64,000 nt of DNA from Pagrus major (lineage: Eukaryota; Chordata; Actinopteri; Spariformes; Sparidae): assembly GCF_040436345.1 (NCBI RefSeq), contig NC_133230.1, forward strand, positions 6,097,297-6,161,296, read 5' to 3'. The notes beneath the pieces were generated by a model. The model saw only the letters and a program-made list of their open reading frames with translations. It made no database searches and was not told the DNA's origin. A program made the position numbers and the translations under genes. Each line of letters begins with the position of its first letter. Position 1 is the stretch's first letter. Shown one piece after another: positions 8,612 through 52,600 of the stretch.

Positions 8612-14080
<5,469 letters not shown>

Positions 14081-31600: not shown

Positions 31601-34600
31601 GGACATCTCTGCAGCACTACAGTACTGCATTATAATGCTGTTTGTCAATGCTTACTCAAAAAACTGCAGCTTTTTGCAATTTGAATATTGTAATTTCGAT
31701 TATATTTCAATTAATTGTGCAGCTCTAGAGGGAAGGAGCCAAAGGATCCTACACACGTCGATAAGCCCCTTCATAGTTTGCAACAACTTCCTTGTTGTTA
31801 ACTATTAGGTATAAGGAAATCATTTTTGGTTTTGTAAAGTCCCTGTCTGCCTTCGGTCTACATAGACACCTGTTTTTCCGTCAGTCTCACTAGTGATTGA
31901 TCTTGTGTCAAACCTCGTGTCTTTAGAGGTCTGTTACATGCCAGACTACTTCTTCTTACAGTCGAAGATTGTTTCAGGTTGTTGAAGTTGATGCATCAAA
32001 GATTTGAACAGTCAGTTCAGAACTTCCCCTTTTTGGGTATTAGTTCTCAGGTTAGTAACTTCAGGAAATGTGAAGATAGACACAGGACGCAAGAAAGTAC
32101 TCGGTCATTACCGAAATAAACTCTGTCCACAGTTGAAGGTTAACTAAATATGCCTTTGTACAGTACATACGCATACATACAGCAATGTGTTTGTAAACTG
32201 GTTTTCTGTTGTGTGTGTGTAGTAGAGCAAGTTCAAGCTTTGTGTGGTGAACAGTTTGTGTGTGTGAATCAGCAGCACATTCCCTGTGTTGAAAGGTGGC
32301 CGTGCTGGAGGGTTTTATGGTTTATGGCTGACTTAGCTGCTTGTACCATTGCTTCACTCCCACGGATTAGGGAGCATCCCGTCTTGACCTGGTTTCAGAA
32401 GTCAGTGCTGCCTGCTTTAAGATACAAATTTCACAGATGATGAATGGACATGTATTTACATCTCACGCCACTGAGATGCAGCTGTTGGCATAATAAAATA
32501 TCACACTGTGTGGATGGTGCGGCACAAACATACAGAAAAAATCTAAAAGAATTTCAAGAATGAATAAATTACGTAACTTGAAGATTGACTAAATCATAAG
32601 TCATCTACAGCAAGAGTATTTAAAGGTTTACTGTCATAGTTGTGGACAGACTGGCTAGCGTCTCCCTGCTGACTAACCATGTCCACAGGTTGACCTAATG
32701 ACCTTTGGTGAAGATGCTTGTCTAAGCAAACTTAAAGTTTGATTTCAGCAGAGGTGACTGATGGGTTTGCCACAATTTGAGAATGTAATGACGGTGGATT
32801 GGTCTAATGGAGGTGCTGCCATTTGTATCCCACGGTTAAATGTTTTCACTCCAGTTCTCACAGAGGCGAAAGGATCATCCAATGACACTTATTGGTTTAA
32901 CGCTTATGTAGGTGAAACTGCCACTGAAGTTTCCGTAGATTATTTTCCTGTAGATTGACTAATCACATTACTTGTTGTGGAAGGCAATCTATGATTGATT
33001 AAGCAGTGATCGTAACATAGTGTGATATTTGTAGCATCACTGACTATCGTGCTGTTGTGTCTTTCAGGCCCGAAACATACAAACTGGGGAGCTCGCTGCT
33101 GTGAAGATCATAAAGTTGGAACCAGGTAAGGGTGATCTTGTCATTATCTCAGTTTTTCTCATCACAGTGCTGTTTTTTGAGCTGAAAAATATGGAGAAGT
33201 CTGGAAAACAAGTCTGGAATTTTCCAGGGTTTTGAATGGAATGCACAAAAAGTACTAAAAAGGAAAAATATTGTTGTACAGCGCCAATACTCATGATTGC
33301 ACATATTTATGTGCTCATAGACACACTGTCGTAGATATATTTTAGCTTCAGTTGTTAAAGAAACATTTCCTCTTCCACAAGTGAGATCTTTTATGTGAGG
33401 AAGAAGAAGAGGAGGACATTAGTGACTGTGCCCAGCTCTGGGGTCTGCGCTGTTGGTGACCTAGTGACAGAGTTAGTGCGATCCAGATTAGTGGGATTAC
33501 GACGGGGGCTTTATGCCATCAGCAGCCAGACTGAGCTCAGCTGATTACCAGTCAGCGAAGGAAGAGATTCACTGCTGTTTGTTTTCTCTTTTCATTCATC
33601 GTGTTACTGTTAGGCTGGCAGTGAGAGGATGTGGCACTTGTGGGATGGTTGTGTCTGAGATTTATAGGTTTTGACTACTTCAGGTCAGGTAGCATTTTGT
33701 TCTGTGTTTGAGCTGGAAGTTCAAAGTGATCGTTCCGAACATGTTTTTTTTAAACTTCCTGATAAGACTGTGAAGGTCCTGAGCTCTTATTTAATGCATA
33801 GACACATTCTGCCAGAATATAGGAGATCGGGCAGATTAGTGTGTCTGTGTCCGTGTCTCTGTGTGAAGCAGAGGATCAGAGAGCTTAGCTGTAAATTGGA
33901 AGAAAAGGCAGAAGAAGGGAAAGGGACGTATTTTACTTGCTACTTGCTGTTATCACTTTTGAGAATAGAAATGGTTCATCCACACCTCAGGGCTGCCAAT
34001 TACAATTAATTTTATTAGAAATAGATGGATTATCAGAGCTGTTATTCAAGAGTTTTTTCGATTATCAGTATCTGCGCTTTTTTTTTGTCCAATTGCCGAC
34101 AAAATTAATTAATTTAAAAGTGCGCTGCTTTGGCTCTGATGCAGCATCCTCTCTCTCTCGCTGTGTTTGCCACTCTGTGGTCTCACTCGATATCCTGCTC
34201 AAAACACTTTCTGATTGGTTACGCGTCACAAGAAATAGCCTAACACTCAATAATCTGAATCTGCAAAGTAACTAGTAACTTAAGGTTATTTACATAACCC
34301 CGGTTCTCTGAGTAATATGAGTGAGATGTCTCACTATGGGATGCACGCCTCGCTGCAGCCCTCAGAAGCATTAATCTCATTACGCCAATCCTGATTGGCT
34401 GGTGAAACGTGTCCGTCCGCCTCAGGTAGTCCCCTCTACCTTAAATAGCGCATGCGGACGGCACCACGTCATTCAAGATAAGCACCTCTTCTCACTCGCC
34501 CAAGCAAGAAGGGATGTCTGGTGAGACATCTCACTCATATTACTCAGAGAACCGGGGTTATGTAAATAACCTTAAGTTCTCTTTCATAATATTTCGTTCG

Positions 34601-37600
34601 ATGTCTCACTATGGGATGTGGTAGCTCCCGTATTGCCAGACAAGCTTACCTAACGTCCACCAACCCACAGGGAAAAGTACTCTGTTCCAATCAGGACAGC
34701 AAAACCGCGCGTGCCACGCACGGCGCGGAGACGTCCAGCTTATAGAAGCGGACAAAAGTGAGAGGCGAGGACCAACTCGCTGCAGCACAGATGTCCTGAA
34801 CAGAAACTCCCCTGAATAAGGCCCAGGATGCGGCCAAACCCCGAGTCGAGTGCGCTCGCAGGCCCACAGGTGGCTGCAAACCCTGACTCGTATACGCCAA
34901 AGCAATTGCCTCCACCACCCAGTGGGATAGGCGCTGCTTTGTGATAGGTTTTCCCTTATGAGGATTAGCCCAGGAGACGAACAGCTGATCGCTCCTCCTG
35001 AAACCCTTTGTCCTATCCATGTAAGTGCGCACCGCACGGACTGGACACAACGCATGTGACCGCTGCTCTCCTGGTGAAGCAGCAAAGGCCACAAGGTCAA
35101 TAGGAGAAATTGAGCCGACCACCTTAGGCACAAAAGCCGGGTTGGGCTTCAAAATCATCCTTACATCCCCCGGGAAGAGCTGAGCGCATGACGAATGCAC
35201 CGAAAGCGCATGGATGTCACTAACCCGTTTAGCCGAAGCCAGAGCCAGTAACAACACTGTCTTGAGAGACACGTGTTTCAAGTCTGCTCCCTCCAGTGGC
35301 TCAAAGGGAGGTCCTTTAAGACCCTCCAGAACCACAGCCAGATCCCATGGTGGTACCAGTGGTCTGGACACGGGGAGAAGCCTGCGCGCTCCCTTCATAA
35401 AACGGCAAACCAGCGGGTGCTGGCTCGCTGTTTGCTTTCCAAACCCCACGTGACAGGCGGCGATAGCTGCCAAGTACACCTTAACCGTGGAGAAGGCTTT
35501 TCGTTTGTCAATCAGGTCCTGCAAGAATGATAATATCACTCCTACTGGACACTGAAAGGGAATGTGGCCATTTCTGTGACACCACCCCTCAAACACTCTC
35601 CACTTACAGTCATACAGGGACCTAGTGGAGGAGGCTCGAGCACTTTGTATGGTGGAAATCACGCGCTGTGAGAGTCCCACAGCTGACAGACTGAGCCACT
35701 CAGGGGCCAAGCCCACAGCGCCATGCGTTCTGGGTGCGGGTGGAAGACCGCCCCCCCCCCCTGCGATAGCAGGTCCCTGCGCAGCGGGAGCTGCCAGGGC
35801 TGAGCGCACAGCAACCGATATATCTCCGCCAGCCAATGCATCGCAGGCCAATGCGGAGCTATCAAAATCAGTGCGTGGCCGTGCTCCCTCACTCTGGACA
35901 GAGTGGGGGGTATCAAGGCCAGGGGGGGGAACGCGTAAAGAAGCTCGTGCGGCCAGGCGTGCGCTAGTGCGTCGACGCCGAGGGGAGCATCCATGCTGCG
36001 CAGAGAGTAAAACAGCGCGCACTGCGCGTTTCCTCTCGACGCGAACAGATCCACCGTGGCCCGACCGTAACGGCCCCATATCTGTTCCACAATTTCCGGG
36101 TGTAGAGTCCACTCCCCGTATACTGGCGCGCCCCTGGACAACAGGTCCGCGCCTGTGTTCAGGGCTCCTGGGACGTGCGTCGCTCTCAGGGAGAGGAGAC
36201 GACCGCAGCTCCACAGGATCAGTTTGCGTGCCAGCATGTACAACCGACGGGAGCGTAACCCCCCCTGACGGTTGATGTACGCCACTGTCGTCGTATTGTC
36301 CGTCCTCACCAGGACATGATGACCCGTGAGAGACGGAAGGAAATGTTTCAGGGAGAGGAACACCGCTGACAGTTCCAGAAAATTTATGTGAGACCGCTGG
36401 AGGTCCACACTCCAGTGGCCCCTCACAGACCGGCCCTCGTGAATTCCGCCCCAGCCCGTCAGGCTGGCGTCCGTAGTGACCACCTTCCTGGACAAGACGG
36501 AGCCCATGGGCACCCCTTGTGTCAGAAAGGACGGGACGCGCCAGTGGCGCAGCGCCCTGGCGCACCCTGGTGTGACCAGTATCCTCCGTGCGCCATGACG
36601 CACGGGATCTAGCCCGCATGAGGCCACCCAAAGCTGGAATTCCCTCATGTGGAGGCGACCAAGATGGACTACGAGAATGGCAGACGCCATCAGCCCGAGT
36701 AATCGAAGACACAATCTGAATTGAACAGATTTGCCTGGATGAAAGAGCGCGAGACATGCCCTGAAATTTTTCACCCGCTCCGCCGAGAGGCGCGCTGTGA
36801 AAGTCACCGAGTCCAGAGATAATCCCAGAAAGATTATGCCCTGCGCTGGGGATAGCATGCTCTTTTCCGCGTTTATCACGAAACCCAGATCGATTAGGTG
36901 ACGTGTGAGAATACGCGTGTGCGCCCTGGCCTCCTGCTCCGACTGTGCCAACAGCAGCCAATCGTCCAGATATGTGGCCAAGCGGATGCCCTGCCGTCTC
37001 AGCGGGGCTATTGCCGCTTCTGTGCACCGCACAAACACCCTCGGGCTTAATGACAGACCGAAAGGGAGCACGCGGTACTCGTAACAGCTCCCTTGGAAAG
37101 CGAATCTCAGATACTTTCTGTGGGGAGGATAAATCGGGATATGGAAATACGCGTCTTTCAGATCGACAGAAGTGAACCAATCGTTCTGTCTCACAAGGCG
37201 CAGCAGGGATGCGTGCGTAAGCATCCTGAACTTGTATTTCCTGAGATATTTGTTCAGAGCACGTAAATCCAGGATAGGGCGAATACCGCTCCCCCCCCGT
37301 TTGGGGACCAGAAAATACCTGGAGTAAAAACCGCTCTGACACTGTGCGGGAGGGACGACACAAATTGCTCCTTTGTTTAACAGTGAGAGGATTTCCTCCT
37401 GTAAAACGCGAGCTGACTCTCCCTGAGCCTGGGAGTGTATTATACCGGCGAATCGCGGAGGAACAGCTGAGAACTGCAGCCTGTATCCCCTCGCGATCGT
37501 CCTCAACACCCAGGGTGGAGCTGCGAGCGCGGCCCATCTCTCGCATCTGAGGGAGAGAGTGGACACGCACCGCAGCCCCTCCACCATGAGAGGCTCCAGC

Positions 37601-40600
37601 CGCGGTGCGGTGGGGCTCTCCCTTGGTGGAGTAGTGACATGGCTCCCGGGCGGTGCTGTGCAATTCCGCCCGGGAGGACAGCGCAGCAGCGGGGACCCCA
37701 CAGCCCCCCCCACGGGAAAAGCCGCAGCTTTCCGCCGAGGGGGGACAGCGGATGTCGCCACCGCGCTGCTTATTCTGATAGTTTTGGCTTTTTTTATTAG
37801 CTGCGCCCTCGGCACTCGGCCTGGATGCGACAGCGGAACACAATTTATTTTCTTTATGAAAACTTGTGTGTGTGTGCGTGCTTGTGGACATGAGTGAGGG
37901 GCAACTGCTGAACCCTCTGCCGTCAAATGTCCGTCTCTCCCGGCTTGCTCTGGCAAGGTCCGTGGCAGCTGGGAGACGGGGGCGTGGGGGGCCCCTGAGC
38001 GCACGCTCGAAAGCCGAACAGGTGGAGCTGGAGAACGGGGAACTTCCAGCTGCATCACCGGTGAAGAGAGGAGCCTTCAGGCCGCTCTCTTCTTCCTCCT
38101 GGCCTGGTTAGTGGCAGCTTGCGCGGGCTGTGCCGGCGGAGCTGCAGCCGGGGCCGAGGGTTTCTTGGACCAGCCGGCCCGGCTGGGCAGGGGAGGTGGG
38201 GCGGGCCGGGGTTTCGACAGTTTAGGTATTTTAAACTGCGAAACTTGGGCAGCAGCCTGCGCGAAGGTTTTCCGCTGTGCAGGCGGAGAGGGAGCTTGGG
38301 GCTTTCGAGGGAGGCAGAGCTGGAGAGCTTCGTCTTCCTTCTTTTTGGCTTCACACCGCCGTTGCATCGAAGCCAACGCGGAACCAAAAATCCCCTCCGG
38401 GACAATGGGCATGTCCAGGACGTCGTCCTTCTCTCTGTCTGACAGGTTGGCGAGGTTGAGCCACCGCGCTCGTTCCTGCAGAACCATTGCCCCCATCGAC
38501 CTTCCCGTGGCCTGGACCGCACAGCGTTGGATACGGAGGCACAGGTCGGTGATGACCGGTATCTCCTCCCACGTAGCTGGGTCCTGAGTTTGCACAAAAT
38601 CCTCGCATAACTCAGCCTGATAAGCCGTGAGCAGGGAGAGGACATTGAGCGCTCTGGCCGAAAGCGCCGCCGCCTTGTATGCCTTTTCAGTCAGAGTTGA
38701 CTGAAAACGGTCAGACTTGGATGGCAGGCTGGGGCTCCGGGAGGACACCGCTGACAGCCGTGGGTGAAGGTGCGCTGCAACGAGTGGCTCCATCGGAGGC
38801 ATGCGGAGCAGACCCAGGCTCTCCATCGCTTCACAGTCGAGGGACGAGGCTCCGGGGATCGGGCTCCTGCTGCTGTAAGGGCGGTCTCTCCATGAGCGCG
38901 CCACCTCATCCAGCAGCTCTGGGAAGACAGGGAGACGTTGCTTCGTCGCACTCTTAGCCAAGGGCAATTTCTTCCCCTCGTAGCGGGATCTGGTGGTCTC
39001 AGCTACGACAGCGGGCCAGGGGATATCCAGTCGGGCAGCAGCGCGTTTGCACACGTCGAGCAGGTCCGAGCTGGGGAGGGGAGAAGCTGGTGTGCTACTC
39101 TCATCTCCATCCCGAGAGGCGACGGAGGCCGCGGGCTGTGCAGCCCGGGCCGGAGTGATGAAGATGTCGTCCTCTTCTTCATCCTCTGAGATGAGGAGTT
39201 CCGAGGCGCCATCGTCATCGTCCCCATAGTCCAGTTCCAGGACGTCTTCCTCCTGCGGGGGATCCGCGGCTAGGTCGAGCTGGGAGCCCCAGCTGGCGCT
39301 AGCCTCCGGCATCGCCACCGCAGCGACCTCCATCTCCTCTCCGCCTTCGACGGCGGGGCCGCCGGGAGGGAGATAGGGGTCATGTCCAGACAAGCTAGCT
39401 TGGCGGGCTAGCCGTCTGCGGAGACTCTTGACGGTGAACACCGCACAGTGTTGACACGAGCCGGGGACGTCGATAGCTAGCCGGGCGTGTTGCAGCCCCA
39501 GGCAGCTCGAGCAGACCTGGTGTGGATCCGTACTCGATATCTTATTCCCGCAACGACAGAGTCGGGCCCCAGAGTCTCCGTGCCCTCTGGTGTGAGGGGA
39601 TTTAGCCTCCATTCCTCGCGAGCTGGTGTGCAGGCGGGGAGTCGAGGCAGTTAGCTGGTGTGCTAACGTGAAGAAGCCGAAAAATTAGCTGGTGTGCTAA
39701 TACTCGGTGCTCGAACTGCCGTGGTGGGGCGTCGAGGACAGTGCTGGCCAAGCTGTGGAGAGCAAGGAAAGCACTGGTTCGATCTGGTGTGATCGATGAA
39801 GCACAGAAAAAGATATCCAAAAAGCTAGTAGCGCCCGGCGACGGAAGCTAAATAAGGTCCGCCTGTGGACAGTTTAGCTAGCTAGCCTTGGACGTGAGAT
39901 ATGCTCCGAGTGAGAAGAGGTGTTTGAATGACGTGGTGCCGTCCGCATGCGCTATTTAAGGTAGAGGGGACTACCTGAGGCGGACGGACACGTTTCACCA
40001 GCCAATCAGGATTGGCGTAATGAGATTAATGCTTCTGAGGGCTGCAGCGAGGCGTGCATCCCATAGTGAGACATCGAACGAAATATTATGAAAGAGAACT
40101 ACAGTTAATAAATAAATGCAGTGGAGTGGAGGTTTAAAGTGGCAGAAAATGGAAATACTCAAGTAAAGTACCTCAAAATTGTACTTAAGAACAGTATTTG
40201 AGTAAATTGTAAGTAGTTACATCCATCACTTTATATTCTAAACTTTGATGTTAACATTTTTATTCTACCGCAAATGTATATCGGTTACAAATATCGTTTA
40301 TCAGTCTTCTTGATTATTAACAATCTGTCTTGATATCTGCCCTGAAACAAACATATCAGTCAGTCTCTTAATGTCATTACTGATTAATCTTCTAATTTTA
40401 TCTATAAAATGCCCCTCGACAGCTTTTCAGAGTGATGTTTTTTATGTTTTAATTTGTCCGAACAACAATGGTTTAAAAATGGTTTAGAGCAGAGTTAGTT
40501 AAGTTTAACAGAGAGGATTTTCTAGTCACAAATTGTCCTGTATTCCCGTACATGTATTTCAGTTGCATAACCCTGGGCAGGTTTTTCCTCCCATAAGCAT

Positions 40601-43600: not shown

Positions 43601-46600
43601 TTCTTACTTCCTACTGGTCGGATGTGTTAGAGTGCTCTGCTGAACTGGAAAGCAGCCTGGATATCAGCCTCTACCACATAAAATGTAAAAGTACAAGGTG
43701 TTCCTTCTATTGTGATTGGCTGTCCTATAATCTGCTGTATTTGATATTGAACCGTATATTCAGAGGGGATTATGGGAAGACTTTGTTCTGTGGTCTTGAG
43801 TTTGGCAAACTAAAAGGAAAGATTTGAGGTTTTTTTTCTAAAAGTTCAAGTCGTACACAACCTTTGCCTCATCTGAAATGCTTTGAGTGGTTATTTTTGT
43901 CAACGTTTCAAATTCAAGGTTTGCTCTCGTGTCAGAAACATAAATTTTATTTTTGTGGGTTTTGCAGATGAATCATAACTTAAGGTTATTTACATAACCC
44001 CGGTTCTCTGAGTAATATGAGTGAGATGTCTCACTATGGGATGCACGCCTCGCTGCAGCCCTCAGAAGCATTAATCTCATTACGCCAATCCTGATTGGCT
44101 GGTGAAACGTGTCCGTCCGCCTCAGGTAGTCCCCTCTACCTTAAATAGCGCATGCGGACGGCACCACGTCATTCAAGATAAGCACCTCTTCTCACTCGCC
44201 CAAGCAAGAAGGGATGTCTGGTGAGACATCTCACTCATATTACTCAGAGAACCGGGGTTATGTAAATAACCTTAAGTTCTCTTTCATAATATTTCGTTCG
44301 ATGTCTCACTATGGGATGTGGTAGCTCCCGTATTGCCAGACAAGCTTACCTAACGTCCACCAACCCACAGGGAAAAGTACTCTGTTCCAATCAGGACAGC
44401 AAAACCGCGCGTGCCACGCACGGCGCGGAGACGTCCAGCTTATAGAAGCGGACAAAAGTGAGAGGCGAGGACCAACTCGCTGCAGCACAGATGTCCTGAA
44501 CAGAAACTCCCCTGAATAAGGCCCAGGATGCGGCCAAACCCCGAGTCGAGTGCGCTCGCAGGCCCACAGGTGGCTGCAAACCCTGACTCGTATACGCCAA
44601 AGCAATTGCCTCCACCACCCAGTGGGATAGGCGCTGCTTTGTGATAGGTTTTCCCTTATGAGGATTAGCCCAGGAGACGAACAGCTGATCGCTCCTCCTG
44701 AAACCCTTTGTCCTATCCATGTAAGTGCGCACCGCACGGACTGGACACAACGCATGTGACCGCTGCTCTCCTGGTGAAGCAGCAAAGGCCACAAGGTCAA
44801 TAGGAGAAATTGAGCCGACCACCTTAGGCACAAAAGCCGGGTTGGGCTTCAAAATCATCCTTACATCCCCCGGGAAGAGCTGAGCGCATGACGAATGCAC
44901 CGAAAGCGCATGGATGTCACTAACCCGTTTAGCCGAAGCCAGAGCCAGTAACAACACTGTCTTGAGAGACACGTGTTTCAAGTCTGCTCCCTCCAGTGGC
45001 TCAAAGGGAGGTCCTTTAAGACCCTCCAGAACCACAGCCAGATCCCATGGTGGTACCAGTGGTCTGGACACGGGGAGAAGCCTGCGCGCTCCCTTCATAA
45101 AACGGCAAACCAGCGGGTGCTGGCTCGCTGTTTGCTTTCCAAACCCCACGTGACAGGCGGCGATAGCTGCCAAGTACACCTTAACCGTGGAGAAGGCTTT
45201 TCGTTTGTCAATCAGGTCCTGCAAGAATGATAATATCACTCCTACTGGACACTGAAAGGGAATGTGGCCATTTCTGTGACACCACCCCTCAAACACTCTC
45301 CACTTACAGTCATACAGGGACCTAGTGGAGGAGGCTCGAGCACTTTGTATGGTGGAAATCACGCGCTGTGAGAGTCCCACAGCTGACAGACTGAGCCACT
45401 CAGGGGCCAAGCCCACAGCGCCATGCGTTCTGGGTGCGGGTGGAAGACCGCCCCCCCCCCCTGCGATAGCAGGTCCCTGCGCAGCGGGAGCTGCCAGGGC
45501 TGAGCGCACAGCAACCGATATATCTCCGCCAGCCAATGCATCGCAGGCCAATGCGGAGCTATCAAAATCAGTGCGTGGCCGTGCTCCCTCACTCTGGACA
45601 GAGTGGGGGGTATCAAGGCCAGGGGGGGGAACGCGTAAAGAAGCTCGTGCGGCCAGGCGTGCGCTAGTGCGTCGACGCCGAGGGGAGCATCCATGCTGCG
45701 CAGAGAGTAAAACAGCGCGCACTGCGCGTTTCCTCTCGACGCGAACAGATCCACCGTGGCCCGACCGTAACGGCCCCATATCTGTTCCACAATTTCCGGG
45801 TGTAGAGTCCACTCCCCGTATACTGGCGCGCCCCTGGACAACAGGTCCGCGCCTGTGTTCAGGGCTCCTGGGACGTGCGTCGCTCTCAGGGAGAGGAGAC
45901 GACCGCAGCTCCACAGGATCAGTTTGCGTGCCAGCATGTACAACCGACGGGAGCGTAACCCCCCCTGACGGTTGATGTACGCCACTGTCGTCGTATTGTC
46001 CGTCCTCACCAGGACATGATGACCCGTGAGAGACGGAAGGAAATGTTTCAGGGAGAGGAACACCGCTGACAGTTCCAGAAAATTTATGTGAGACCGCTGG
46101 AGGTCCACACTCCAGTGGCCCCTCACAGACCGGCCCTCGTGAATTCCGCCCCAGCCCGTCAGGCTGGCGTCCGTAGTGACCACCTTCCTGGACAAGACGG
46201 AGCCCATGGGCACCCCTTGTGTCAGAAAGGACGGGACGCGCCAGTGGCGCAGCGCCCTGGCGCACCCTGGTGTGACCAGTATCCTCCGTGCGCCATGACG
46301 CACGGGATCTAGCCCGCATGAGGCCACCCAAAGCTGGAATTCCCTCATGTGGAGGCGACCAAGATGGACTACGAGAATGGCAGACGCCATCAGCCCGAGT
46401 AATCGAAGACACAATCTGAATTGAACAGATTTGCCTGGATGAAAGAGCGCGAGACATGCCCTGAAATTTTTCACCCGCTCCGCCGAGAGGCGCGCTGTGA
46501 AAGTCACCGAGTCCAGAGATAATCCCAGAAAGATTATGCCCTGCGCTGGGGATAGCATGCTCTTTTCCGCGTTTATCACGAAACCCAGATCGATTAGGTG

Positions 46601-49600
46601 ACGTGTGAGAATACGCGTGTGCGCCCTGGCCTCCTGCTCCGACTGTGCCAACAGCAGCCAATCGTCCAGATATGTGGCCAAGCGGATGCCCTGCCGTCTC
46701 AGCGGGGCTATTGCCGCTTCTGTGCACCGCACAAACACCCTCGGGCTTAATGACAGACCGAAAGGGAGCACGCGGTACTCGTAACAGCTCCCTTGGAAAG
46801 CGAATCTCAGATACTTTCTGTGGGGAGGATAAATCGGGATATGGAAATACGCGTCTTTCAGATCGACAGAAGTGAACCAATCGTTCTGTCTCACAAGGCG
46901 CAGCAGGGATGCGTGCGTAAGCATCCTGAACTTGTATTTCCTGAGATATTTGTTCAGAGCACGTAAATCCAGGATAGGGCGAATACCGCTCCCCCCCCGT
47001 TTGGGGACCAGAAAATACCTGGAGTAAAAACCGCTCTGACACTGTGCGGGAGGGACGACACAAATTGCTCCTTTGTTTAACAGTGAGAGGATTTCCTCCT
47101 GTAAAACGCGAGCTGACTCTCCCTGAGCCTGGGAGTGTATTATACCGGCGAATCGCGGAGGAACAGCTGAGAACTGCAGCCTGTATCCCCTCGCGATCGT
47201 CCTCAACACCCAGGGTGGAGCTGCGAGCGCGGCCCATCTCTCGCATCTGAGGGAGAGAGTGGACACGCACCGCAGCCCCTCCACCATGAGAGGCTCCAGC
47301 CGCGGTGCGGTGGGGCTCTCCCTTGGTGGAGTAGTGACATGGCTCCCGGGCGGTGCTGTGCAATTCCGCCCGGGAGGACAGCGCAGCAGCGGGGACCCCA
47401 CAGCCCCCCCCACGGGAAAAGCCGCAGCTTTCCGCCGAGGGGGGACAGCGGATGTCGCCACCGCGCTGCTTATTCTGATAGTTTTGGCTTTTTTTATTAG
47501 CTGCGCCCTCGGCACTCGGCCTGGATGCGACAGCGGAACACAATTTATTTTCTTTATGAAAACTTGTGTGTGTGTGCGTGCTTGTGGACATGAGTGAGGG
47601 GCAACTGCTGAACCCTCTGCCGTCAAATGTCCGTCTCTCCCGGCTTGCTCTGGCAAGGTCCGTGGCAGCTGGGAGACGGGGGCGTGGGGGGCCCCTGAGC
47701 GCACGCTCGAAAGCCGAACAGGTGGAGCTGGAGAACGGGGAACTTCCAGCTGCATCACCGGTGAAGAGAGGAGCCTTCAGGCCGCTCTCTTCTTCCTCCT
47801 GGCCTGGTTAGTGGCAGCTTGCGCGGGCTGTGCCGGCGGAGCTGCAGCCGGGGCCGAGGGTTTCTTGGACCAGCCGGCCCGGCTGGGCAGGGGAGGTGGG
47901 GCGGGCCGGGGTTTCGACAGTTTAGGTATTTTAAACTGCGAAACTTGGGCAGCAGCCTGCGCGAAGGTTTTCCGCTGTGCAGGCGGAGAGGGAGCTTGGG
48001 GCTTTCGAGGGAGGCAGAGCTGGAGAGCTTCGTCTTCCTTCTTTTTGGCTTCACACCGCCGTTGCATCGAAGCCAACGCGGAACCAAAAATCCCCTCCGG
48101 GACAATGGGCATGTCCAGGACGTCGTCCTTCTCTCTGTCTGACAGGTTGGCGAGGTTGAGCCACCGCGCTCGTTCCTGCAGAACCATTGCCCCCATCGAC
48201 CTTCCCGTGGCCTGGACCGCACAGCGTTGGATACGGAGGCACAGGTCGGTGATGACCGGTATCTCCTCCCACGTAGCTGGGTCCTGAGTTTGCACAAAAT
48301 CCTCGCATAACTCAGCCTGATAAGCCGTGAGCAGGGAGAGGACATTGAGCGCTCTGGCCGAAAGCGCCGCCGCCTTGTATGCCTTTTCAGTCAGAGTTGA
48401 CTGAAAACGGTCAGACTTGGATGGCAGGCTGGGGCTCCGGGAGGACACCGCTGACAGCCGTGGGTGAAGGTGCGCTGCAACGAGTGGCTCCATCGGAGGC
48501 ATGCGGAGCAGACCCAGGCTCTCCATCGCTTCACAGTCGAGGGACGAGGCTCCGGGGATCGGGCTCCTGCTGCTGTAAGGGCGGTCTCTCCATGAGCGCG
48601 CCACCTCATCCAGCAGCTCTGGGAAGACAGGGAGACGTTGCTTCGTCGCACTCTTAGCCAAGGGCAATTTCTTCCCCTCGTAGCGGGATCTGGTGGTCTC
48701 AGCTACGACAGCGGGCCAGGGGATATCCAGTCGGGCAGCAGCGCGTTTGCACACGTCGAGCAGGTCCGAGCTGGGGAGGGGAGAAGCTGGTGTGCTACTC
48801 TCATCTCCATCCCGAGAGGCGACGGAGGCCGCGGGCTGTGCAGCCCGGGCCGGAGTGATGAAGATGTCGTCCTCTTCTTCATCCTCTGAGATGAGGAGTT
48901 CCGAGGCGCCATCGTCATCGTCCCCATAGTCCAGTTCCAGGACGTCTTCCTCCTGCGGGGGATCCGCGGCTAGGTCGAGCTGGGAGCCCCAGCTGGCGCT
49001 AGCCTCCGGCATCGCCACCGCAGCGACCTCCATCTCCTCTCCGCCTTCGACGGCGGGGCCGCCGGGAGGGAGATAGGGGTCATGTCCAGACAAGCTAGCT
49101 TGGCGGGCTAGCCGTCTGCGGAGACTCTTGACGGTGAACACCGCACAGTGTTGACACGAGCCGGGGACGTCGATAGCTAGCCGGGCGTGTTGCAGCCCCA
49201 GGCAGCTCGAGCAGACCTGGTGTGGATCCGTACTCGATATCTTATTCCCGCAACGACAGAGTCGGGCCCCAGAGTCTCCGTGCCCTCTGGTGTGAGGGGA
49301 TTTAGCCTCCATTCCTCGCGAGCTGGTGTGCAGGCGGGGAGTCGAGGCAGTTAGCTGGTGTGCTAACGTGAAGAAGCCGAAAAATTAGCTGGTGTGCTAA
49401 TACTCGGTGCTCGAACTGCCGTGGTGGGGCGTCGAGGACAGTGCTGGCCAAGCTGTGGAGAGCAAGGAAAGCACTGGTTCGATCTGGTGTGATCGATGAA
49501 GCACAGAAAAAGATATCCAAAAAGCTAGTAGCGCCCGGCGACGGAAGCTAAATAAGGTCCGCCTGTGGACAGTTTAGCTAGCTAGCCTTGGACGTGAGAT

Positions 49601-52600
49601 ATGCTCCGAGTGAGAAGAGGTGTTTGAATGACGTGGTGCCGTCCGCATGCGCTATTTAAGGTAGAGGGGACTACCTGAGGCGGACGGACACGTTTCACCA
49701 GCCAATCAGGATTGGCGTAATGAGATTAATGCTTCTGAGGGCTGCAGCGAGGCGTGCATCCCATAGTGAGACATCGAACGAAATATTATGAAAGAGAACC
49801 CAAATTGTTATCCCAAAATGTTGTAGTGTTCATGCCTGCAATCATTTTGTGAGGTGTTTATATACAAATGGAAAATATCTCATTTTAAAATGAAAAAAGC
49901 CCCTGCACAGAAAATGAAAATATAATTTTTTGTCCATGTGTGTGTGATTTCTCCCTCGGTTTCCAGGGGATGACTTTTCCATCATACAGCAGGAAATCTT
50001 CATGGTGAAGGAATGCATGCACCACAATATTGTGGCCTACTTTGGGAGCTACCTCTGGTAAGAGCCAGCTTAAAATACTCCTGCTTTGTCATTTTACACT
50101 GTATTTTCTCCTCTTTCACAGCCAGTCTGAGCTCTTACATTTGTGGAATTCATATGTTACTGTCAAAAGCATTTAATGAGCCGCTGCCTGAAACTCACAT
50201 GACGTCTTTAATTACTTAGTCACACCTGTGTGTGTGAAAGTATGACTCAAACTATTGAACCTGGCTGACTGGTGCTGACTTGGCCCTTCGGTGCCAGGAT
50301 GCAGCACTCATGTTTTAATGCAGCCTATGTTTTGTGGCTGCTATCTGAGAGGAAGTAGTGCCGGTCCGCCCACCACTGCCTCCGACTTCCAGCAGGTTTA
50401 ACTGGAATATGAGCCTGTGATCTGTTTTTATATGGCTGTTAGTCCAGAGAGATGAACGTCTAATCCCAGCAGGAATGTCTTGGTACAGTCTCGCCACACC
50501 GCGCGCAAATGGTTACTGTAAAATGTTAATGAGCAACACACCATGCATTAATTATTGTAAAACTAGATTAATTGTATTAAAAGAACCACATTTTTATTTG
50601 GGGAAGTTCCTGACTTGAAATCATTTCCATGTCCAGATGAAAGGTGTGAAAAGTGGCACAGATGTGATTGGGTATCTGGGGCAGTGCGCGGTATCAACTG
50701 TGCTAGCCAAATGTCACAGTTTGATCACAGTCACAAGGTTTTATTTTTAGCTTTTTGTCAGAAGGATGACATCATTCTTTTAGTCAACCCTCTTGTGTCA
50801 TCCAGTTCACTCAACTACAGACGCCATAAACTCTATATCAATTGTTTCGCAATCGTCAAAATACTAGCGCGCCCAAAAAGCTGGACTATCTGACTTTAGT
50901 TTATAGCTGTCGGCTTTGTGGTATTATGTTATTAAAGAGCAGAGAAGAAAAGGGGCTGATATGTGGGTATAAAGATTAATGTTTTTAGGGCCCTCATACA
51001 CCAGACCGATGGTCGGTCGTCAGCCAACGTTGGGGCCGTTGGTGAGCATCTGTGGCCCTGGGGCCTAGTACGTGCAGTGTGTCCCAAAGTGTAGGCACTG
51101 CTCAGCTGTTGTTGGCAGCTTTTCAGCATGTCGGTTAGATAAATAACTCTGATTAGTTGTCCAGCGAAGTGAATGAGTACATGTGAAGAGCAATGGAAGA
51201 AAGGGAAAGCCCCTTGAGCCTGTCTCATAAGCCATGATATAACCCATTTAGCACGGTTTCTTCTTATTTTTACCCACTGCCTCTTCGCCAGTGCCATTTG
51301 TTTATATCAGACATATTCTCAATATATATATACACCGATCAGCCACAACATTAAAACCACCGACAGGTGACGTGAATAACATTGATCATCTCATCACAAT
51401 GCGATGTTCTGCTGGGAAACCTTGGGTGCTGGCACTCATGTGAATGCCACTTGACACCCACCGTGTGCCTTGGTGCTCGACACCACAGGACACCCTCAGA
51501 GGTCTTAAGTCCATGTCTTGACAGGTCAGAGCTGTTTTGGCTGCACAAGGGGAACCTTCCCAATATTAGGCAGGTGGTCATAATGTTATGCCTGATCGGT
51601 GTATATAAGCTAGTTGGTCTTTGCAATGTGTTTCAGTGCATCTTTCTGGCAGAGAGAGAGGCGACAGGAGGCGGGACAGTCAGACTTTGTCACTCCTAGT
51701 TCTTGGATGTTGGTTTGGTGTGCCTGTGCCCATATTCTTGGTTGTCAGTTACGTGACAATGCATCTCAGACAATGCTGTGGAGTAATGCAAAAGTAATAT
51801 AAGTATTAGCAATGCCTTACTTTAAGAAAAATGCAGGTAATGTGTCATACATTACATTTTTTAAGTAACGACCCGCATAATGATTGTTAGTGTGTGTCGC
51901 TAACTGTCAAAGCAGCCGATCCTAACTAATTTTCTCTGATTTCATCAGTCGAGAGAAGCTTTGGATATGTATGGAGTACTGCGGTGGAGGATCTCTGCAA
52001 GACATTTATCATGGTGAGTCATAAAAAGGGTTTTAAGAACTGTTCATACATCGTAAAATCCATCTCTGCCTCAATCCTTACCCTGCAAACATGAAATGCA
52101 TTGTGTTGTTATAGTGACAGGACCTCTCTCAGAGCTTCAGATAGCGTACGTCTGCAGAGAGACCATACAGGTGATTACACTTTTAAATCTTTTATTGAAT
52201 TAAGTTTCAGTTTGAACTCAACTCAGAAAACATCTTGATTTCCTTTTCAGGGTTTGGGATATCTGCACAGCAAGGGCAAGATGCACCGTGACATCAAGGT
52301 ATCTTATCTTTTATCTTTTGTTTTTGTTCTTTTCGCCTTGATTTTATTCACATCAGGCCCATTGACATGTATCACACTCAGATGCTTTGCTTCATGCCAG
52401 CACAGACAGATTAGCACTCAAATCTATAAGATATAAAGCTCAAAACATTAGAGAAAGACAAAGACTAAAAGAAGCAGCTGTAGCTCAGCCTGCAGTCCGG
52501 AGGTCTGACACGTCTCTGATGGAGCAGCTCTGCAGAGGTGTGAACTCAAGTCACAGGAAAGCGTAACCTCATTATGTTCTCATTTTAAAGCGGTGGCCAA

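Follow-up and report, generated by a model that had tools for sequence, protein, structure and literature searches.

The window (the whole 64,000-nucleotide stretch of Pagrus major DNA analysed here) holds two copies of a DIRS retrotransposon, each 5,824 bp long and 100% identical to one another; the preliminary description of this DNA did not mention that it occurs twice. The element and its parts are as follows.

34276–40099, minus strand (the sense strand): DIRS element, copy 1, from self-comparison and an RVT_1 match in one ORF
43976–49799, minus strand: DIRS element, copy 2, identical to copy 1
39907–40075, minus strand: terminal repeat, high side, an inverted match to the low-side repeat
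34325–34498, minus strand: terminal repeat, low side, an inverted match to the high-side repeat
34521–34618, minus strand: internal complementary regions, pairing with the two ends of the element
38077–39612, minus strand: gag ORF, 511 aa, ATG at 39612, homologues found
35659–38055, minus strand: reverse transcriptase (RT)/RNase H ORF, 798 aa, RVT_1 6.6e-27
34691–37891, minus strand: putative tyrosine recombinase ORF, 1,066 aa, weak Phage_integrase match

DIRS1-like elements are described in the available part of PMC3266345 as having inverted terminal repeats, internal complementary regions and a reverse transcriptase, and the element in the window resembles them in all three. Its inverted terminal repeats (34325–34498 and 39907–40075) are 96.6% identical over 174 aligned positions. 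The internal complementary regions pair 34521–34578 with 34277–34334 and 34575–34618 with 40057–40100, and they overlap by 3–4 bases (34521–34578; 34575/34576–34618), as in the DIRS1-like class, where the overlap is ∼3 bp and near the 3′ end. The reverse transcriptase match is strong (RVT_1, 6.6e-27). The RT_RNaseH match in the same ORF is weak (0.0011; 19.5 bits, below the cut-off of 24.8), as is the Phage_integrase match at residues 951–1049 of the 1,066-aa ORF (0.0026; 18 bits versus a cut-off of 27.1). No Pfam match to a methyltransferase domain was found in pol using general Pfam profiles, none of them DIRS-specific.

Gag has a conserved N-terminal Cys/His zinc-type motif and a basic C-terminal end. 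Homologues numbered 104 among 7,990 scored candidates, and those named are from ray-finned fish. Protein relatives include ones from Larimichthys, Nibea, Fundulus, Crenichthys and Champsocephalus. The confidence of the structure model (pLDDT 52) is too low to reveal an RNA-binding fold, and a sequence search of solved structures gave no match up to E 1. Beyond the fish genome, no DNA relatives were found in viral contigs by RT and gag-alignment scans or in genome contigs by the gag-alignment scan, and comparison of Gag with plasmids and of the RT ORF with phages also yielded no relatives.

Hairpins with an ACACCA loop in the leader and gag

Within the first ∼1 kb of the sense RNA there are seven CACACCAG words, of which four are closed by perfect 5–6 bp hexaloop stems, two by stems with internal mismatches and one by a weak stem. 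The preliminary description had listed seven TGGTGT words on the forward strand and six stems around them; all are present, two of the stems containing the internal mismatches just mentioned. Pair probabilities below are from a 1.13-kb fold.

39779–39796, minus strand: hairpin 1, TCGATC-ACACCA-GATCGA, leader; 6 bp, pair probabilities 0.87–1.0
39684–39701, minus strand: hairpin 2, ATTAGC-ACACCA-GCTAAT, leader; 6 bp, 0.91–1.0
39650–39667, minus strand: hairpin 3, GTTAGC-ACACCA-GCTAAC, leader; 6 bp, 0.99–1.0
39613–39640, minus strand: hairpin 4, adjoining the gag ATG (39612); 2 bp, separated from the outer pairs by a 2x2 internal loop
39583–39598, minus strand: hairpin 5, CCCTC-ACACCA-GAGGG, gag codons 5–10; 5 bp, 0.93–0.96
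39518–39523, minus strand: site 6, within gag, with CACACCAG; weak stem of 2 bp, ∼0.48
39081–39100, minus strand: hairpin 7, GAGTAGC-ACACCA-GCTTCTC, gag; 3 bp, a 1x1 mismatch, 3 bp
39394–39412, minus strand: related gag hairpin GCTAGC-CCGCCAA-GCTAGC at conserved RLARQAS codons, seen in the fold

The loops start at nt 309–1006 of 5,824, in the predicted leader and the 5′ part of gag. Hairpin 4 lies directly before the gag start codon, as had been proposed, and its predicted stem extends beyond that codon with the U paired and the A and G in 1x1 mismatches. The leader is free of any ATG from 39948 to the gag ATG. The three sites within gag fall in three codon phases (1, 2 and 0). Site 6 overlaps the DPHQ codons of the conserved zinc-type motif and forms a stem of more than 2 bp only if a T is bulged, and the pairs of hairpin 7 have probabilities of 0.77–0.98 (inner) and 0.13 (outer three). 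The second copy carries the same array at 48781–49496 (copy 1 coordinates + 9,700). An eighth ACACCA, at 36568–36573 within the RT ORF, has a stem of only 1 bp.

Chance is refuted as the source of the array. Counting any hexaloop word closed by at least five Watson-Crick pairs, 0 of 5,000 dinucleotide shuffles of 39061–39816 (a control suggested in the preliminary description) closed the same word more than once, whereas ACACCA is closed four times. In shuffles of the whole element (n = 200) the maximum for any loop of 4–9 nt was two, again versus four observed. When the seven 5′ arms were re-matched with the seven 3′ arms, the true order was the only one of 5,040 to give 37 pairs (mean 21.1). 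The sense RNA of 39600–39799 has a folding z-score of −7.0, the most negative of 57 windows along the element, and the antisense RNA one of −4.8. A search of region 34200–40200 with Rfam 15 gave no credible match, the sole one up to E 1 having E 0.7 (plus strand, 36296–36360).

Stem and loop change across sites, copies and lineages

The seven sites were aligned by the loop word alone. Pairing is kept through both-sided change between sites: five of the six stem pairs are changed on both sides, a number reached by 46 of 500 shuffles, and the both-sided changes amount to 13 cells versus 4.6 in shuffles. The arms are 83.3% paired versus 54.5%, and the covariation score is 0.754 versus 0.197; for each of the last three measures 0 of 500 shuffles was as high, in a control that leaves relatedness in, so that possible descent of the sites from one another bears on these values. 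When the alignment was slid, the paired fraction dropped to 26–43%. The proposal that the loop is fixed and the stems vary yet still pair is thus borne out.

Comparison between copies of the element points to conservation of the loop. In five older copies (∼10% diverged), 1 of 192 loop cells differ, 18 of 315 arm cells and 346 of 3,308 of the rest (Fisher 3.8e-8), making the loops the slowest-changing class of bases. Randomly placed sets of seven hexamers were as conserved in 31 of 20,000 trials, and this conservation is partly regional because the block 39510–39667 is conserved as a whole. Young copies show a small contrast (loops 2/504, rest 113/9,840) among 12 of 15 copies, the three identical to the query (L001–L003, 100%) being left out. 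Across 20 copies the exact loop is found in 134 of 137 site instances, and all 118 scored stem instances have at most one unpaired designed pair. The site-5 loop is altered in two young copies (to ACACTA and ACGCCA) and H-Q is missing from site 3 of P0108, a relative; therefore no single loop is indispensable.

Compensation between copies is limited to one pair. At positions 39636/39617 of hairpin 4 the window has a C-G pair, L077 and L079 have T.G and L081 has T-A. Changed pairs are broken in 7 of 17 cases in old copies and in 3 of 7 in young copies (two of these being alignment gaps). Among transitions in old copies, those that keep a pair show no excess in the arms, with six keeping and four breaking sites versus 67 and 56 in the rest. 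Of the suggestion that this is an RNA structure read through its loop, the covariation, the loop conservation and the sense z-score of −7.0 are in favor, while the freedom of the stems does not hold throughout: in the DIRS lineage L063, TTAGC/GCTAA arms also enclose other loops, and the arms of hairpins 2 and 3 are therefore not free.

The preliminary description had named related DIRS elements lacking ACACCA hairpins as evidence against its reading. Such elements exist among more distant families of the same genome, the array being absent from families B and C, and the 20 nearer copies carry the hairpins. The Gag of L060 and L061 has the same zinc-type motif, yet family B lacks the array. At the RLARQAS position this family has GCAGGCTAGC-ACGCCAA-GCTAGCCTGT in L058 and L060 and ACACCAA in L061, which may be a single G-to-A change; the gag ACACCA match of L061 (E 0.0095) was rejected as a second array since its sister copies have ACGCCAA there. 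L063 was likewise rejected as an ACACCA array, with one near-hairpin containing one mismatch. Candidate relatives L066 and L082–L087 (Gag 33–37% identical) have a similar Cys/His stretch and no same-loop array, and L067 and L088–L092 gave no interpretable DIRS leader, L088 and L090 being scanned for words and hairpins only. Simple repeats were among the matches of a genome pattern search (at least 285 forward and 125 reverse, with at least 200 and 71 when the pattern was read backward as a control), and we do not take its counts as evidence of enrichment.

Two other lineages, L064 and L063, have leader hairpins with a common GCAA loop and both-sided pair changes, a result biased upward as the rows were chosen for forming stems. 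Without selection, at least four pairs close 4 of 6 GCAA words in L064 (1050–1480, sense) and 3 of 3 in L063. When 19 other loci were scanned for shared loops without selection, L064 alone exceeded two: it has four GCAA hairpins of at least 5 bp, of which one lies beyond the leader, close to the far end of the element. L063 had two, and shuffles (25 per locus) at most two. Eight leaders from five families all have a hairpin count above their own shuffle mean. We read the ACACCA array as clade-specific, and two other lineages as using a different loop in a comparable way.

Candidate roles of the array

The reading that we consider most likely, with moderate confidence, is binding by Gag for packaging, coupled to gag translation. 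Both roles were put forward as plausible in the preliminary description. It is our inference that the loop is read by a protein, that Gag is this protein and that packaging and translational control would be the outcome. The leader and early gag RNA would form a multi-site recognition array of ACACCA hexaloops, each closed by C-G on freely varying paired stems. Gag, through its zinc-type motif and basic C-terminal end, would bind the loops co-operatively on full-length sense RNA and thereby mark that RNA for Gag particles. At hairpin 4, whose predicted stem crosses the gag AUG, Gag might turn down its own translation as the RNA passes from messenger to genome. Retroviral packaging signals lie in the 5′ part of the RNA, comparable to the position of the array.

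The main rival, which we regard as unlikely, is a host RNA-binding protein such as a germline Y-box (cold-shock) protein preferring CANC/CACC, which would repress, store or localise DIRS RNA in oocytes, the element keeping the array because it gains from germline placement. ACACCA contains CACC, and hairpins 2 and 3 contain AGCAC. However, the RNA bound by Y-box proteins is unpaired and does not require a specific stem, so stem preservation would be explained only as loop display, and the GCAA loops of L064 and L063 are not easily explained. Slightly less probable still is translational control without packaging, in which the hairpins and the start codon within hairpin 4 set the level of Gag by way of scanning or an initiation or repressor factor. 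The gag AUG is preceded by four hairpins and closely followed by one, the predicted hairpin 4 stem spans it and no upstream ATG interrupts the leader after 39948. Occluding a start codon, though, takes one stem rather than seven repeats of one loop word, has no need of a site ∼500 nt inside gag and fits poorly with a predicted stem that leaves two bases of the AUG, the A and the G, without a partner.

Sites acting in the DNA are improbable, whether for transcription factors (CTGGTGTG resembles a T-box core) or as over-represented GCTA/TAGC words that form some of the arms. These words do have the top tetramer z-score in the leader (12 versus 3.5 expected) and in the 5′ part of gag (15 versus 4.2), they rank first in four of the five further leaders inspected, and TTAGC..GCTAA arms hold other loops in L063. 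On the other hand, a fixed asymmetric core has no need of flanks that change together and pair, hairpins 1 and 5 lack GCTA, and folding is stronger in sense than in antisense. We give even less weight to priming or annealing, in which the loops, or TGGTGT in minus-strand cDNA, would anneal during reverse transcription to the 3′ end of a tRNA (NCCA) or to some other RNA. Although ACACCA ends in CCA and the priming of DIRS elements is, to our knowledge, poorly understood, six bases in a closed loop are short, seven sites go unaccounted for and the element has a single sense TGGTGT, at 35584. That same site was the only candidate for a loop–loop kissing partner within the RNA, which was rejected. 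Next to negligible is an origin in chance, against which the shuffles speak, or in protein coding. Site 6 does overlap codons of the zinc-type motif, and near relatives share the HTRG and STPA peptides encoded at sites 5 and 7, but the gag sites occupy three codon phases and four sites lie upstream of the gag ATG.

The GCAA loops of L064 and L063 are as expected were each lineage's binding protein to read its own loop. A tentative extension, which we think possible but doubtful, is that DIRS lineages carry their own same-loop arrays in leader and gag (ACACCA hexaloops, GCAA tetraloops and perhaps CCA-containing loops in two more, the last an idea that arose post hoc from inspection of hairpins), the loop co-evolving with the RNA-binding specificity of Gag as a modular code against cross-packaging between related elements of one genome.

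GACG tetraloop hairpins of gamma- and alpharetroviruses lie in the leader near gag. The portion of PMC516450 available assigns such tetraloops a part in RNA packaging and possibly also in dimerisation, and like the DIRS array they are stem-loops with a common loop word. The DIRS array differs in that it belongs to a tyrosine-recombinase element and repeats one hexaloop seven times along ∼700 nt, with some of the sites inside gag. ACACCA is not self-complementary and so cannot kiss itself, and Gag binding is here a proposal. Small RNA viruses and coronaviruses have dispersed RNA packaging signals, in which a fixed loop motif sits on varying, degenerate stems in several copies. The DIRS array shares the fixed loop and varying stems but belongs to a different genetic system, and its role in packaging is putative. 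Passages of PMC10246530 hold no closer match. The title of a paper on the Ty1 5′ TIPIRT region concerns kissing loops, and its accessible text does not mention an array of one loop word. In the available part of the DIRS1-like overview (PMC3266345), 'hairpin', 'secondary structure' and 'UTR' each occur 0 times, and it therefore describes no leader RNA structure there. No description of an ACACCA hairpin array in DIRS elements was found in the literature searched.

We know of little on how DIRS elements select their RNA or on the part played by Gag. The array offers an RNA target as short as 20 nt whose controls are built in, namely seven natural stem variants around one loop, and lineages with another loop provide material for swap tests. 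The array is also a caution that leader palindromes in tyrosine-recombinase elements are not necessarily recombinase sites. If the proposed reading is true, the principle of fixed loop and free stem known from viral packaging signals would apply to tyrosine-recombinase retrotransposons as well.

The ACACCA hairpins of the DIRS element

The window holds two DIRS retrotransposon copies:

34276-40099, minus strand sense: DIRS retrotransposon copy 1, 5,824 bp
43976-49799, minus strand sense: DIRS retrotransposon copy 2, 5,824 bp, identical to copy 1

Because the copies are 100% identical, recent activity of the element is suggested. They lie 3.9 kb apart on the same strand in unrelated flanks and are either insertions of very recent date or a product of the assembly, a single assembly having been examined. 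The element carries a 511-aa gag ORF and an RT ORF, together with inverted terminal repeats and internal complementary regions; Pfam matches to RNase H and tyrosine recombinase were obtained only below the curated cut-offs. The terminal repeat contains a hairpin (40001-40016), GCCAAT-CCTG-ATTGGC in the window and GCCAGT-CCTG-ACTGGC in three loci of another family of this genome (L058, L060 and L061, family B below), the CCTG loop being unchanged and the stem altered on both sides.

Within the first ~1 kb, seven CACACCAG words occur in the DIRS sense orientation, and their loops begin at nt 309, 404, 438, 470, 506, 576 and 1006 of the element (0-based; sites 1-7). Four sites are upstream of the gag ATG (39612) and three are inside gag. 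The preliminary description reported seven words and six stems. All seven words and all six stems are present. Sites 1, 2, 3 and 5 have perfect stems of 5-6 bp. At site 4, 2 bp are followed by a 2x2 internal loop and then further pairs outside it; site 7 has 3+3 bp flanking one mismatch. The stem of site 6 is weak. In a 1.13-kb fold with pairing distance of at most 150 nt, predicted pair probabilities were 0.87-1.0 at sites 1-3 and 0.93-0.96 at site 5. The five pairs scored at site 4 had 0.99-1.0, and at site 7 the inner three pairs had 0.77-0.98 and the outer pairs 0.13.

The sense fold of 39500-39930 gave z -6.2, and 39600-39799 was the most extreme of 57 overlapping 200-nt windows of the element (sense -7.0, antisense -4.8). 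When 63 stretches of the window were compared, most of them 930 nt long, hairpin excess was highest at 39001-39930 (14 vs 3.8, z 4.81). The second-highest excess was found outside the DIRS copies, at 12601-13530 (12 vs 4.1, z 4.77). Sense RNA of the pol region is also strongly structured at 37500-37799 and 35500-35699 (z down to -5.8 and -5.3).

Chance, coding and covariation

The shuffle comparison proposed in the preliminary description favored a real array: none of 5,000 dinucleotide shuffles of 39061-39816 had a hexaloop word closed more than once by at least five pairs, compared to four closures in the real sequence. Among the 5,040 possible matchings of 5' and 3' arms (the two stem halves), only the real one reached the observed pairing. 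Each of the three sites in gag has its own codon phase (1, 2 and 0); thus, a single peptide constraint cannot produce the shared word. When the seven sites were made into a covariance model and the 64 kb was searched with it, the best 14 matches were the seven sites of each copy, with E-values of 3.8e-5 for the best site, 0.0047 for the worst and 0.049 for the next match. Since these sites are the training set, this demonstrates no more than separation from background.

For covariation between sites, rows were picked by loop word only and compared with 500 shuffles, a control in which relatedness among sites remains. Both-sided change occurred at five of six stem pairs, a count reached by 46 of 500 shuffles. 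None of the 500 was as high in cells with both-sided change (13 vs 4.6), covariation score (0.754 vs 0.197) or paired fraction (83.3% vs 54.5%), and sliding the partner by 1-3 columns reduced pairing from 83% to 26-43%. The both-sided changes and the covariation score bear out the original claim of a fixed loop on differing stems that still pair.

Copies, relatives and other families

A leader query of the Pagrus major assembly (786 Mb, 25 contigs) yielded 21 rows among the best candidates scored, read as at least 20 copies. Across the 20 copies, 134 of 137 site instances carried the exact loop, and all 118 scored stem instances (six sites) had at most one unpaired designed pair. Differing cells in 12 young copies numbered 2/504 in loops, 7/816 in arms and 113/9,840 elsewhere, both loop changes being at site 5 (ACACTA, ACGCCA). 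In five copies diverged by ~10% (L077-L081) the counts were 1/192, 18/315 and 346/3,308 (Fisher 3.8e-8). Random placement of seven hexamers matched this conservation 31 times in 20,000 trials, because the entire block 39510-39667 is conserved. These five copies have 17 changed pairs, of which 10 were still paired (nine G-U, one compensated) and seven broken. The compensated pair, 39636/39617, went from C-G to T-A and is T.G in two other ~10%-diverged copies. No excess of pair-keeping transitions was found in the ~10%-diverged copies (6 vs 4 sites; rest 67 vs 56). With one compensated pair and no transition excess, compensation is observed mainly between sites and hardly between copies.

A Gag search gave 104 protein matches, a short leader-plus-gag query two and a leader-plus-gag alignment 81, the named ones being ray-finned fish. 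HTRG, the reading of site 5, lies just upstream of the zinc-type motif in 31 of 82 proteins with the motif, including those of Champsocephalus and Crenichthys, and is absent in 51. A reading frame crosses the leader in five relatives (P0034, P0094, P0108, P0117 and P0144), known here from protein alone, with bases obtained by back-translation. Four of the five retain LHTS at site 4 and four LAHQ at site 3; STPAN at site 2 is retained in one of two covering relatives, with STQAN in P0117. At the outer pair of site 2 in P0034 and the fifth pair of site 3 in P0094, back-translation places G for the window's A opposite C or U, paired under any codon. At site 3, at least one mismatch is unavoidable in P0034, and the loop word is lost in P0108.

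More distant loci from a Gag search of the genome were grouped by leader similarity, the window's element being family A:

Family B: L058, L060, L061
Family C: L059, L068
Family D: L062, L064
Family E: L063
L064 leader, 1080-1225 (sense): four GCAA-loop hairpins
L063 leader, 1190-1320: three GCAA-loop hairpins

Leaders of different families align in short stretches only. The ACACCA array is absent from the family B and C leaders in this genome. Related elements without ACACCA hairpins, which the preliminary description counted against its proposal, therefore exist in these families; the 20 closer copies are not of this kind. The GCAA hairpins of L064 and L063 have the same architecture as the ACACCA array with another loop, and the L063 leader also has TAAA- and CAAA-loop relatives of them. 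With rows chosen by stem, GCAA stems showed both-sided change at four of five pairs (0/500 shuffles).

Hairpins in eight leaders (one A, three B, two C, L063, L064) reached ~2-4 times the shuffle level, the weakest excess being in L059 (7 vs 3.5, sd 2.0). CCA-containing loops were in excess in A (5 vs 0.38), B (2, 3 and 4 vs ~0.3) and L068 (4 vs 0.31) and less clearly in L059 (2 vs 0.41; 10/100 shuffles); no such excess was found in L063 (1 vs 0.34) or L064 (0). GCTA/TAGC is over-represented in both orientations in DIRS leaders and early gag (39930-38900; L059, L061, L063, L064), its excess ranking first in the window leader and in four of the five further leaders compared, and third in L068. 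In the window's element, 28 of 41 occurrences fall within the first 1,200 nt; hairpins 2 and 3 have arms made of this word, and the same arms surround other loops in L063.

The leader of the window's element has a 16-18 nt stretch around GCTAGCTAAACTGTCC (39863-39881) in common with the leaders of L063 and L059, which for the most part do not align with it elsewhere. By eye, another gag-bearing family (L066, L082-L087) has a ~65-nt structured unit twice in its leader, with arms unlike between the two units and pairing apparently retained.

Possible readers of the loop

These data show a multi-site RNA array, confined to the 5' part of the element, that presents one conserved loop on stems that are interchangeable. 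Together with the sense z of -7.0, this supports the structural part of the earlier proposal of an RNA structure read through its loop, and we are highly confident that selection acts on the array at the RNA level. A candidate protein would read the ACACCA loops. Gag is the natural candidate because its own RNA must be told apart, its gene is adjacent and the zinc-type motif is conserved N-terminally; the main rival is that host Y-box proteins read them. Since the gag start falls within hairpin 4 as predicted, this hairpin may act in a messenger-to-genome switch. A role in Gag-mediated packaging or translation is plausible, and we lean slightly toward it.

In the titles and abstract openings of the listed literature matches on DIRS RNA structure or packaging and on ACACCA hairpins, where subscription journals are sparse, no such feature was described. 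The array shares the principle of a fixed loop on retroelement RNA hairpins with the retroviral GACG tetraloops (PMC516450). Fixed-loop hairpins in DIRS elements, with loop words specific to lineages, appear to be new.
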